A stretch of 64,000 nucleotides of DNA from Cylicocyclus nassatus (taxonomy: Eukaryota > Nematoda > Chromadorea > Rhabditida > Strongylidae): contig CATQJL010000112.1 in assembly GCA_958299035.1 (NCBI GenBank), positions 48,690,941-48,754,940 on the forward strand. Reading direction: 5' to 3'. Positions 1,096-10,500 of this stretch are shown piece after piece. Under the pieces are notes generated by a model, which did not search any database, had not been told where the DNA came from, and saw only the letters and a list, made by a program, of their open reading frames with translations. The position numbers and the translations under genes were made by a program. Numbering within the stretch: position 1 is the first letter of the stretch; the number at the start of each line of letters is the position of its first letter.

Positions 1096-1620
1096 TTAGG
1101 AGGGGGGGAGGGGAGGAAGAGAGAAAAGGTAAAAAAGCGTGGTATGAAGAGCTCTAATTTGTACCTTATCTAGGCACAAATTGAAAAAAAAATTTAAAAA
1201 TTTTCAAAAGATATTAAAAAATTTTAAAAAAATTGATTATGAAGATCTGTGCTCCTGTTTCACTGCATCAACAATAACGAAAGCAATAATGTTTATCCCA
1301 AAAGATGTACAAGTTAGGAACAAATTCATTTCCTGCACATCATCATCAATAATATCACTATCGCTAACGTCAGAGACAACAAGTTCGCCGCCTGAAAAAT
1401 CTTCTTCTTCCTCCAAAGGGTCATCGGAGTAGAAGTAGAATTGCGTGCAAAAGCGTTCTGAGTCGAAAATGGATTTGAAACTTTCTTCTTCTTTTGAGCG
1501 CTTTTGTGATTTTTTTCCTAGCCCTCTGGTAGCACCAGGAAGTCAGCAGGTAGGTGACCAGTTTCTTCATACCATCTTTTAGGATATTTCAAAAAGTCGT
1601 ACGGTAACAGCCTGTCTGGA

Positions 1621-4523: not shown

Positions 4524-7500
4524 ATGCCAAACGCCATGCTATTATTCGGTATTCTACCTTTCGTTGGACTTATTCAACCGCTTTACGCTGATCCAAGCTG
4601 GGTAAGACCTTTGATTTTCTCATGAAATGGTCACTTTTTGTACTAAGATAATCTTCGAAATGCCCGATCAGAAAGAACTATATAGAAAAATAAAAATATA
4701 AAAGAGACAAAATAAAATAACATACTGAACGTGCGGCATTTGGAAATTGAGTTGAGATAACTTGCAGTTGAATTAATTGGATGAATACCTTTTTCCAGAA
4801 ATATTGCTTATGATGAGACAAAATTTGGAAATGCAACTGATTTGATAACAAGTCTTAAATCTTAGACTATGTAAATAAGTCTTTGTTTACAAAAGAAACG
4901 AATGTATTCCAGCAGACAAAAAAGTAGACTCTAATCTCAACAATTCAGCCATTTCCATTCCCGTTTCCTGGTGGTTTCCCCGTCCCATCAGAAATAGTAA
5001 ACCTAACGGATGTATCGGATCAATGCTTAACGGATGTCAACATGTTCACAACGAGTTTGACCACTTATGCGCAGACCTTCGAGGAGTGTCGACGAGCTGG
5101 AGGATGTACCAAAGAGCAGCAGATAGTGCTCGACGAGCACAAATATGCCGTAAAGCGTCAGTTTCACAAGAAGACACTTACTGAACCAGGGCTCGGCAAA
5201 GATGGCTTTCCGAAAATGCAAAAAACGAAATCCCTCTTGACTTTCGCAAAATTTTTACGAAGTCGTCTTCGAACTTTAGACCCTACAATACCGCTCACAT
5301 TTTTTGAAAAATAGACGCGAATGTATGGACATGTATGGACATGTCCATACATCAGCGTCGCGTGGCCATATCTCGCTTCAGAGTGGACGAATTCTGGATT
5401 CAAAGCCACCATTTGATTCAACTCGGCGCGGAGAATCTTCTGATATATTGGAAGTGGGGGTACGATGTTTTCGATATTCCGTTTTCAGTTTTTTGAGTTT
5501 GTTCTACGGAGGTCCTTTCGCGAATATGTGAAGCGACGCCTTCCCAACATAGAAGACTTTACTAAGTACTATTCCATAATGCTGTTCTTGTAGATTATTG
5601 TGCGCTAAAAAGTAGGCTCAGACTTCTTTTCAAAGGAGATAGAAGCGTTGGAAATTTTGGAAAAATCACGCGTTTCTAAATTCTACTCGCCATAACTTCC
5701 TTCGGAATAAGTATGTTTTGAACCCGAAAGCAGCGCCTTGCTCAGCTCATCAAGGCGATTTTTCTCATATACAGCATGTCCTTGATATTTCGATTTCAGT
5801 ATTCATGAATCTTTCTGAGAACGTCTTTTCGCGAAGGTGTAAAGCAGCGAGCATTGTCCCGAGTACATTCCAGCGAGGATATTTCGATAGCACTTTTTCT
5901 GTAGACTATAATGTGTTAAATAGTAGCCGCAGTTGCCTTTTTAAAGAAAGTAGAATGGCGAGTGAATTGTGGAAAAATCTTGTCGTCCCAAATTCTACTC
6001 GCCATATCCGCAGAATACGAAGCTATCTTGCTAAGCAGATGTGAGTTTCGAAATCAGCAGGTCGCATAACCTCTACGAGCAAGTTTTCCGATATGTTCGG
6101 GTTATTCCACTTTTTCTCGTTTTACGCTCCGGAAGCTCGCCGATGGATTTTGGTCAAAATGTTGATGCTCTTGAATTGTAGGGAAACTTCGCTTATAGAG
6201 GTTTTCGAACACGCTCTTTACGAAAATCGTGGTCTTTGAGGATTACGGGGTCTTTTTGGAGAGATACGGTGAGGTGACTGTAACTGCATCACGAAAGTGC
6301 GTAAATTAACTTATACACTAATGATCCTGTTTCGCCTCTACCCCTAGACAGGTAGCTGTATTAGACCACTCCCGAGGCTCATCAGTAGGGAGGAGTGGGC
6401 TGGAGAAGGAAGAGAGTGATAGCACCGTAACAGGTTTGCCTTTTATACCTGTGGGGTAGGTCAGATAGATCAAAGGCAAGGCCAAGGATTCAAGTCATGC
6501 TATTTACCATTCTGTAAACGAATCTTTTTACATTTTTGAATGTGCTTAGCTGATTGTATTTATATGTAATACATTTGTTAAAAGTAACGCATTTGATTAT
6601 TCCTAGTTGAATTACTTCCTTGTCATAATTTAAGCTAAGCAATAGTCTAATCAAATTTTCAATCCTTTCATAAAAATCCTCAAATTTTGTGCAGGTTCTG
6701 TAAATTCGCAATACTTCTGTATAAATAATAGCACATTTGAGAGTAAGGCTTATATGTGAAGTTCCATGTGAAAACCTTACAACTTCAAAGCCAAAAGCTT
6801 CAGTTTTATTGTATTGCTTAGTGATGATGACATTATTTCTGATAGAAATACTTAGGTCCAGAAAATTACAATCATAAAGAGTAGGATTAGTAGTCTCCAT
6901 ACTCAAAACGTTATTATAAACTTGAGTCAATAAGGATTTTATGTATTCTTGTGTTTGATCGTGAATAATTAAAATGTCATCCATGTATCGATATGCATGG
7001 AAAAGGAATTGATATTTTTGTATCTTACATGCAAATGTGTACTCAAAGTAAGAGAGAGTAAGGTCTGCAATTATAGGGCTAGCATTACCTCCTTGAGGTA
7101 CTCCAACTATCTGATGAAATATTTGGTTGCCGACTCGGCAAAAACTATTACGCAGAATATAGTCTAAAAGATAAATTAGATCTTCTATTGTATAGTACCT
7201 ATAGCCGTCTGTATCGTCCTGTGTAGAGGTGTACATTATTCTTTGATTATTATTGATTTTTATATATCTTTTACAAGCATTTCTGAAACATAGTTTGGTT
7301 ATTTCTTTAAGGTTGTGAATTATGATATCATGCGGTATGTTAGTAAACATATTTGTGAAATCAGCAGAAAAGAGTCTTTTGTTTTTCGCTTCAATGTTTC
7401 CCAGGTCGGCGGATATATTTATATCATTTATAGCCCAGTAAGTTTGTAAGCATTTTTTATTCTTAAGAACAGTGTTTGCATAATTTTTGAAATGAATCCT

Positions 7501-10500
7501 GATGAAGTTTAGAAGATTTAACAGCTTAACCGTTATATGTTTGGTACTGCTGTCATAAGCACCAGTGATAAACCTAAATTTTGTAGGATTCTTATGTAGT
7601 TTGGGTAAGCAATATATGACTGGTATATTACAGGTTACTTTGCTTTTAATGTGCAGATTATTCGTAAAGATAAGATGTCTGGTGATGATGTCATTTATAT
7701 TGGAATTCTCAACCTTTTCATATATGTTATTGACTGTATTATGTACAGTTAAACCCATTTCTTCTAATATTATTTTCAAGTATAGTCTTTTGCAAATAAT
7801 TCCATAATTAGAACTGGCTTTGTCTAGAGGGCAGATTACAAAATAATTATGTATATAGTCGAGCTCGTTTTTATTAATACTAACCAATGCATTGTTATTG
7901 ATACAATAAAACAGTTTGGCCTCAATTTTTCCAAAATTATTGTAAACTATATTAGATATTTTTTCGATTGTACGATTATTTAAGTGGTATTTTTTCTTTA
8001 TTTTGTCAATGTATTCTTTAAGAATATCTATCCAAGTGCTTTTGATTTTTTGTTGCGAAAAATTTAATGGAGGTCGAAATTTTGTACCTTTTTTGAAAAT
8101 TTCGTGAATGTCTAATCTATTAAAAATACTGACATCTCCTGTAACAATGTCTTTGTGATGGCTGGATACGTAAGTGGGGTAATTATCACAGATACAAGGT
8201 ATGAGTTCAGTATTCAAACTTGGGATAGCTTTCAGGAATTTGTTATAGTTGAAAATACGCGTAGAGATTGGACTGTTGTATTCAAAAATGATTCTAAAGT
8301 TTTTAAATTCTGTGTTACCTTCATCAATTAGAGCTCTGACGGCTCTGTTATTGAAAATTTTATTAAGATTAACTCTATCTAATATTGAGTTGTAAAAAGG
8401 GATTTTAATTGAAGGTAGATTTTGAAATACCTTTTTATTTTTGTCAGCGTGTTTATTGAAGTGATAGTGGCAAAGTGTGCTAAGCAGTATAATTTTATTT
8501 GTTCTTGATATATTCAAATAGTTGGTAGGATAAATTAGGTGGTATATAAGCTTAGAAATATATTTATGTGGTTTAGATTTTAGGTATTTGAAAATATCAT
8601 ATGGTTTTTCTGTTTGTTCGAATAGTAAATTAATCTCATTAAAGATTTCTTCTATAGTACTGTTTGGTCTGTTTTTATGTCTATGGTTTCCTCTATTTTT
8701 TCTTTCTTTCAGAATTCTAAGGCTAAAAAACGGATGAGCTTTAGAGGTTGTTAAAGGGTTTTGTATTAGACTGAGATTTCCGTAGCCTTTAATATTGTCA
8801 TTGAAACCAAATGGGAAGGGAGTCATTAACAATTTTATCCAAAAAAGTTCTTTGTTTCTAAGTATTTCTGTGTCTTGATTTTCAGTTAAGTTGTCCAAGA
8901 TAGAAATTGTAATATCACTACTGTTACATCCTTTTTCCATGAAGTGTCTATAAAGTATTTTGTTTTCATTATCCTTCGTTATACCTCTAATATGTTCTTT
9001 GATTCTTTCGCGAAGTTTGCGGGTGGTTATTCCTACATATTGTAAACCACAAGTACCACATCTAATGCAGTATACTACGTTTTTGCTGGTGCAGTTGCTC
9101 ACTGTGCGTTTATAGGTATTTATTTTGAATCCAGTGACTTGTGAAATTACGTAGTCATTGTAATCCATTTTACTACATATGTTACAGGATTGATTACATT
9201 TTGAACCCTTATTTTTATTGCCGAAATTCAGTAGGTTGTACCTGCCGGATACCTTACGCTTATAGAACGTAGAACCCTGAAAATAAGATTGGGAATAACC
9301 ATATGTTTTTGTATTGTTTTTGAGCCTAGATCTAAGGTATAGAAGGGCCCTATCCCATACCAGAGGGAAGGTTACTTAGAGTTTCGGGAGGACTGCTCCC
9401 AGGGGTTGGCGCTCCCTTTGAAAGAATAGCTACCGGAGGCGTAGCACTTACCCTCCCTTGCCAGTGACTACTTGTGTAAACCCCATCGGTAGTACCCGGA
9501 AAAAAGAAAAAGGAAAAAAGGAAAAAGGAAGGGAAGAAAAACTAAACCCACCAACGTAAGGTACACAACCTACCCCCTTATGTGTAGTACAATGTTTTGA
9601 CTGTTTAAGTTTTGAGTACATGAAAGGTTTTTTTAGGATTTTTGATTATGTAATGTAAGGGCAAAGAAATACTATGAATATATTGGTAGTGAAATGTTAT
9701 ATAATGCTTGTTTAGTGTGATATTAATCTTATGTCTTAGTAAATATCAGTTCTTCACTATGGGGCTGAATCAAGTTATTGTCAGTAAACTAACTTCAGTT
9801 TCAATCTACCGTAATCTAGAGGTCCAAGTGATTGTTATAGGAACGTCCTATAATCGAATTACGCTTGGGAAGAGAAGTAAATTGATTAGACCTGGAATGA
9901 TATCCACGAAAGTCCATAATGGAGGAAAATGGGCTTTCAAACCCTATTTTATTCGTTCGCGGTGAAGAGTGGTCGGAATCTGCTTTCGCTCGCGTTATCC
10001 AAAAATTTTCATCCCATTGCAACCACGAGGCAATGCGGTGAAATGAAAATGATACAACCCTACCTGAGCTCTCGCTTGCGAAAGATGACGTCAAAAGTCC
10101 ATTTGGAATGGGGCAAAATGGGATTTACCTCCATTTTAAACGGACTCGAAAGCCCATTTTACTCCCAGCAGCAAGGTGAGCTGGGACTTAGTCCATTTTT
10201 GACCTTTTTGCATATTTTTGATTGCGATTTTTTGAGAATGTGTTCCTCAGCCTATCTTGAGGTAACAAGAGAGTGGAAAAAGTTTCATGTCTTTTATAAA
10301 TTCTGAAATAAGTGTTTTTTTCTAAACTCATATAAATGCTGTTAAACTCATGGAAGGAGGTAAAATTCACCAAAATATTCGTCAACAAACTCAAATGCTT
10401 CCAAGTATTAGGTCGATGCGAATATTCCTATGTAAATCGAATAAAGTTTGTTAACTCTCCAAATCATCAACCAAAACTAGATTTATGACTTGTGTTTAAA

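Follow-up and report, generated by a model that had tools for sequence, protein, structure and literature searches.

The 3′ untranslated region (UTR) of a Naiad-type Penelope-like element (PLE) in the nematode Cylicocyclus nassatus carries what we read as a type-CSG hammerhead ribozyme, assembled by kissing hairpins and processing read-through transcripts of the element, and comparative sequence analysis leads us to give this reading a probability of a little over 0.8. That the motif is a working ribozyme is very likely, and, given a working ribozyme, a role in tandem processing is fairly probable. The copy described here lies in a 64,000-nucleotide stretch of contig CATQJL010000112.1 (positions 48,690,941 to 48,754,940 of the forward strand), referred to below as the window.

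Copy comparison places the 5′ ends of four other copies at window position 9864 or 9862 and the 3′ ends of several at 6301-6304, with full-length copies running from 9864 to about 6303. Window positions 5501-6307 belong to another repeat family, which hosts the inserted element and whose copies recur at L047 and L021. In the element's ORF, a GIY-YIG endonuclease domain (PF01541, residues 30-76) is N-terminal to the reverse transcriptase (PF00078, residues 525-750), and between the two lies a CxC motif (C325/C327) found in all 16 aligned proteins. The endonuclease CCHH residues are similarly conserved, with C37 and C40 present in 14 of 16 proteins and H59 and H75 in 15, the remainder being gaps. 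The CxC motif and the CCHH residues are criteria for Naiads, and domain order together with these motif criteria classifies the window element as a Naiad-type PLE. A canonical Penelope/Poseidon PLE was rejected, as it would need a GIY-YIG domain C-terminal to the reverse transcriptase. Pseudo-LTR or tandem organization is present in related families and absent from the window copy itself.

The motif is on the minus strand, in the same sense as the ORF and 3′ of it; it begins 91 nt past the stop codon, with about 44 nt of the element left beyond the predicted cut (Table 1). An earlier note on this DNA had described a CUGAUGA box, a stem II of GCCUC/GAGGC, a GAA, and an ACAGG arm, all of which are present on the minus strand from 6392 to 6326, and the CCUGU-C-UAGGGG strand that it placed within the stem II loop lies at 6352-6341. 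Its stems I, II, and III stood, and a fourth helix, P4 (CCACUCC/GGAGUGG), had been overlooked. Read 5′ to 3′, CUGAUGA comes first, then the cleavage site, and then GAA, giving the block order C-S-G. Stems I and II each cross the remaining helices, and P4 and stem III are mutually nested, forming side-by-side hairpins. A second CCUGUU, proposed in the same note as a competitor for the ACAGG arm, does exist (6434-6429), nearer to the motif than the claimed distance of about 50 nt. We rejected it as a competitor and regard it as probably nonfunctional because it is not conserved between subfamilies, which show, for example, CCCGCU, CUCGUU, or CCUGCU.

Table 1. Features of the Naiad-type element and its predicted ribozyme in the window
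Feature	Position	Strand	Basis or remark
Whole Naiad-type element	6303..9864	−	5′ end 9864, 3′ end ~6301-6304
892-aa ORF, intact	6490..9168	−	N-terminal GIY-YIG endonuclease, then CxC motif, then reverse transcriptase
P4 5′ arm CCACUCC	6392..6398	−	Anatomy of representatives and covariation
Stem I 5′ arm UCCCUA	6386..6391	−	Anatomy of representatives and covariation
Catalytic box CUGAUGA (block C)	6379..6385	−	Sequence match
Stem II 5′ arm GCCUC	6374..6378	−	Anatomy of representatives and covariation
P4 3′ arm GGAGUGG	6366..6372	−	Anatomy of representatives and covariation
Stem III 3′ arm CCUGU (block S)	6348..6352	−	Anatomy of representatives and covariation
Predicted cleavage site, between C6347 (H17) and U6346	6346..6347	−	Analogy with hammerheads
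Stem I 3′ arm UAGGGG	6341..6346	−	Anatomy of representatives and covariation
Stem II 3′ arm GAGGC (block G)	6334..6338	−	Anatomy of representatives and covariation
Catalytic GAA	6331..6333	−	Sequence match
Stem III 5′ arm ACAGG	6326..6330	−	Anatomy of representatives and covariation

A descriptor scan of both strands of the window, covering all six block orders with a minimum of 4 bp for each of the three stems I, II, and III, returned this motif as its single site (score, 41); 40 dinucleotide-shuffled windows gave four matches in any order, one of them CSG, with a best score of 29. In the fetched loci (293,195 bases), the same descriptor found 63 CSG matches and one weak SCG match (score, 28), which was the sole candidate for a canonical strand order and was taken for chance; since 4 bp or more are demanded of stem III, minimal PLE hammerheads lacking helix III escape this descriptor. 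Rfam gave no match at gathering score anywhere in the window, and its Hammerhead_3 model scored the motif at 12.8 bits (E of 6.1) against a gathering score of 48.5. A classic hammerhead of type I, II, or III was rejected on this score and on the CSG order, which is not a nested three-way junction. Nested folding yielded both the P4 and the stem III hairpins in five of the seven members tried; for the window copy and L059 it gave the P4 hairpin without the stem III hairpin. Fold z-scores of the seven members ranged from −4.83 to +0.67, the worst being that of the window copy (z of 0.67), which folds no better than shuffles.

The earlier note had proposed a check of other copies for compensatory changes in the three stems, and such changes were found in stems I, II, and III and also in P4. 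In 20 hand-picked representatives, from which near-duplicates were left out, 96.3% of cells were paired, compared with 80.5% in shuffles, and 18 pairs and 102 cells had changed on both sides, compared with 10.2 and 34.6. The covariation score was 0.526, against 0.237 for shuffles and at most 0.156 for slid partners. For four of five measures, none of 500 shuffles reached the value of the representatives; by "further pair types" in this set, the structure does not beat shuffles, 182 of 500 reaching its value. Both-sided changes affected 5 of 6 pairs in stem I, 3 of 5 in stem II, 5 of 7 in stem III, and 5 of 7 in P4. An alignment of 45 of the 46 distinct copies (the rearranged L036 was left out) gave similar figures, with 90.8% of cells pairing, 16 pairs and 125 cells changed on both sides, and a score of 0.330, against 0.186 for shuffles (none of the 500 reached it) and no more than 0.136 for slid partners. 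In this larger set the number of both-sided pairs was reached by 18 of 500 shuffles, and the pair-type count was equaled or exceeded by all 500.

Because related sequences can beat shuffles without structure, the slid controls and an arm-swap test matter here. Distinct arm pairs were fully paired with their own partners in 6 of 7 cases for stem I, 6 of 6 for stem II, and 3 of 4 for stem III, and with swapped partners in 8 of 42, 3 of 30, and 2 of 12, respectively. P4, which played no part in the descriptor that found the motif, is 7 to 12 bp long in all 20 representatives and reached at least 7 bp in 72 of 354 combinations with swapped arms and 34 of 4,000 with shuffled arms. A few families (L048, L060, and L064) have P4 in a register one nucleotide off, and the P4 of L093 is misaligned in the 20-representative alignment.

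The core sequences CUGANGA and GAA, the A15.1-U16.1 pair, and an H17 other than G are present in all 20 representatives, a result partly required by the descriptor, which demanded CUGANGA, GAA, a U before H17, and an H17 other than G; L093 was instead found by eye. The independent measure of core conservation is the 36 of 39 ORF-chosen copies described below. Position N7 is U in 11 representatives, A in 5, C in 2, and G in 2, and H17 is C in 13, A in 7, and never U; this freedom at N7 and restriction at H17 fit what hammerhead chemistry allows. Among near copies (37 rows), identity is 0.948 in the stem and P4 arms and 0.975 in the core, whereas the upstream 3′ UTR reaches 0.805, the inner loop 0.812, and the tail 0.595. 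These identities exclude L019 and L024, which have insertions inside the motif, L019 also being absent from the 38-row near-copy alignment. Core letters are lost in some near copies (e.g., L013, L026, L028, and L040), and many families retain the whole motif though their flanks cannot be aligned.

Searched at the protein level, the window's genome returned 53 matches; setting aside the window itself and previously fetched copies (14 matches) left 39, all of which were examined. These 39 were picked by protein similarity alone (42 to 82% amino acid identity to the window ORF), and their 3′ flanks were fetched without regard to the ribozyme. The motif lies downstream in 36 of these 39 diverged ORF copies, several of them mutually near-duplicate; all stems are intact in 35, and in L074 the motif is present with a broken stem III. 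The descriptor itself called a sense-strand type CSG in 30 of the 39 flanks and in 0 of 800 shuffled flanks. In L086/L099, a pattern match located a complete CSG motif about 1.4 kb 3′ of the ORF match and on its strand, the assignment being by position across a stretch that was partly read. Five flanks (L067/L087, L077/L088, L079/L089, L080/L090, and L083/L091) enter long microsatellite-like repeats, and the motif was found further downstream in four of them. The motif was not found in L083, even after extended reading, or in L084 and L085, in whose flanks unrelated sequence begins early. Genome-wide, the 17-base core pattern TACTGANGAGNNYCSGG has 685 sites, to be read as C-block sites rather than proven whole ribozymes, versus 4 for the reversed control, and the S plus G block pattern of one family group has 319 versus 0. 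The long microsatellite-like tracts between ORF end and ribozyme in the five Naiad copies are of the TACA, CACA, and GCAACAT types.

Beyond this genome, scanning genome contigs of bacteria and archaea with the protein profile gave three contigs filed as bacterial metagenome bins, which we infer to be eukaryote contamination. L092 clearly bears the motif, its four helices all built from different sequence, and its ORF region has just six short matches, none close, in the window's genome. Weak matches to the C terminus of the protein at the start of L092 (E of about 1e−4) suggest a preceding tandem copy. In L093 (4352-4440), about 600 nt 3′ of the ORF, stems I and III are present together with an AU-rich P4 of 12 bp, and stem II is offset by an extra U after A9 (CUGAAGA-U-GGCCU/AGGCC). 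An extra nucleotide has been described in the core of a viroid hammerhead, reportedly at the position seen in L093. No motif was found in L094 (genome_contigs) or in L095 (viral_contigs), a single weak protein-profile locus, and a scan of viral_contigs with the CSG pattern gave 0 matches.

According to Eckert, Friedrich, Weinberg and Weinberg 2023 (PMC10085705), hammerheads can be split into blocks C, S, and G, and natural noncircular orders of these blocks were found. One such noncircular permutation, type CSG, comprised two similar sequences with modest covariation and has a helix joining stems I and II. In vitro, both examples self-cleave (rates, 0.004 and 0.026 per minute), and they do so during transcription as single short transcripts; no function was described for them. 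The window motif shares with this type the C-S-G order, the conserved core, stems I to III, and a helix bridging stems I and II, here P4. Because block order, core, and bridging helix match, we assign the window motif to type CSG: judged from its sequence, it is a type-CSG hammerhead ribozyme, with cleavage predicted. In contrast to the two published sequences, the present members are many, covary in all four helices, and have a defined retrotransposon carrier. The pseudoknotted hammerhead of unusual strand order that the earlier note envisaged in a Naiad-type element thus finds support in the sequence evidence, the order itself being the known type CSG. In a literature search that left out most subscription journals, "type-CSG" and "hammerhead" occurred together in Eckert et al. 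2023 only, and hammerhead, Penelope, and Naiad occurred together in no paper. Within the literature so covered, the permutation is already known, and what is new is its Naiad-type home, its numbers, and the four-helix covariation.

Tandem units are found on contig C112, where two head-to-tail units have ribozymes 4,922 nt apart and the homology of the unit tail stops about 54 nt past the cut, at the start of the next unit. Same-strand ribozyme-site pairs 4.9 to 7.7 kb apart also occur at C112:13961463/13968925, 26980743/26988421, and 56197296/56202217; they are probably more tandem units. Two C1 ORFs have ribozyme regions on both sides, 99.2% and 99.6% identical, and so show the pseudo-LTR arrangement described for Penelope-like elements. 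We propose that the RNA would fold as two adjacent hairpins, the first, on stem P4, presenting CUGAUGA in its loop and the second, on stem III, presenting the cleavage site and GAA. The two loops would kiss via stems I and II, forming the hammerhead core, and the RNA would be cut after C6347. Read-through transcripts might in this way be cut between units, in tandem arrays or in ribozyme-flanked ORF copies, and cuts in both regions would free an RNA of unit length for reverse transcription, its ends being a 5′ hydroxyl and a 2′,3′-cyclic phosphate. Later ligation of the unit RNA into a circle is conceivable; retrozyme RNA becomes circular, according to PMC6155905. The window copy has a lone ribozyme at its 3′ end, and a cut there would take off no more than the final ~44 nt and whatever follows.

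Insertions end about 44 to 54 nt past the predicted cut, implying a template that was left uncut at its 3′ ribozyme, derived from the next unit, or had been rejoined. In the anole PLE, insertion in vitro did not need ribozyme cleavage, and the main template was unprocessed RNA. The whole motif is kept in insertions, close to their 3′ end, where retrotransposon enzymes often bind; together with the anole template, this is what would be expected if the fold had lost cleavage and been retained because the element's reverse transcriptase binds it or uses it to recognize the template. We consider that improbable, since nothing about a binding site would call for a hammerhead core with N7 free and H17 restricted to C or A, and many families keep everything while their flanks cannot be aligned. 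Chance resemblance within one repeat family might be suggested by the shortness of the core motifs and by the one CSG-order match in 40 shuffled windows at a loose threshold. We nevertheless hold it to be extremely improbable, given the both-sided changes in four helices, the recurrence beside diverged ORFs, the 685 versus 4 sites, and the second lineage, and the shuffled flanks and the covariation in the 20 representatives rule it out.

A further alternative concerns where cleavage takes place, the CUGAUGA hairpin of one unit attacking the substrate hairpin of another, so that cutting would occur mainly between molecules or tandem copies. The hairpins are separate modules that meet only via the loop-loop stems I and II, tandem copies exist, and minimal PLE hammerheads are said to cleave as dimers. 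Against this, the published CSG examples cleave cotranscriptionally as single short transcripts, as described in PMC10085705. The two hairpins are also always adjacent, with an inner linker of 3 to 15 nt that favors cis cleavage, and we regard predominantly intermolecular cutting as unlikely. Cutting of read-through transcripts in cis would suffice without trans cleavage, because tandem or both-side ribozyme copies occur.

The Naiads of Craig et al. 2021 reportedly have an N-terminal GIY-YIG domain, CxC and CCHH residues, pseudo-LTRs, tandem copies, and a microsatellite association, all features of the present family as well, and reportedly lack canonical hammerhead motifs, whereas the present family bears a noncanonical one. 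That reported lack fits a motif invisible to canonical searches and to Rfam. It is somewhat more probable than its converse that Naiads in general kept the PLE hammerhead in a pseudoknotted CSG order unseen by canonical-motif searches. If so, the CSG order would explain the Naiads' seeming want of hammerheads, type CSG would belong naturally to Naiads, and the noncircular permutation would be an ancient trait under selection, serving to process tandem transcripts via kissing hairpins. CSG hammerheads in Naiads would also restore a ribozyme feature common to endonuclease-bearing Penelope-like elements. For type CSG itself, the present family supplies numerous natural examples in which all helices covary, a defined element that carries them, and a plausible role.

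The minimal hammerheads of canonical PLEs, as described in PMC6155905 and PMC11167929, are likewise PLE borne and located in a repeated pseudo-LTR region, with tandem or partly tandem copies. They are nested, usually lack helix III, and belong to elements with a C-terminal endonuclease; the Naiad-type motif, in contrast, is pseudoknotted, with a full stem III and a P4 bridge, in an element whose endonuclease is N-terminal. Retrozymes (PMC6155905) similarly have ribozymes flanking the unit on both sides, which could free unit-length RNA, but they are nonautonomous and use type I or III hammerheads, and circular RNA, conceivable here, has been shown for them. A rearrangement within the motif is seen in L036 (about 1462-1564, minus strand), where the P4/stem II segment of this copy recurs as a reverse complement inserted into the substrate region, as though templates had been switched inside the hairpin.
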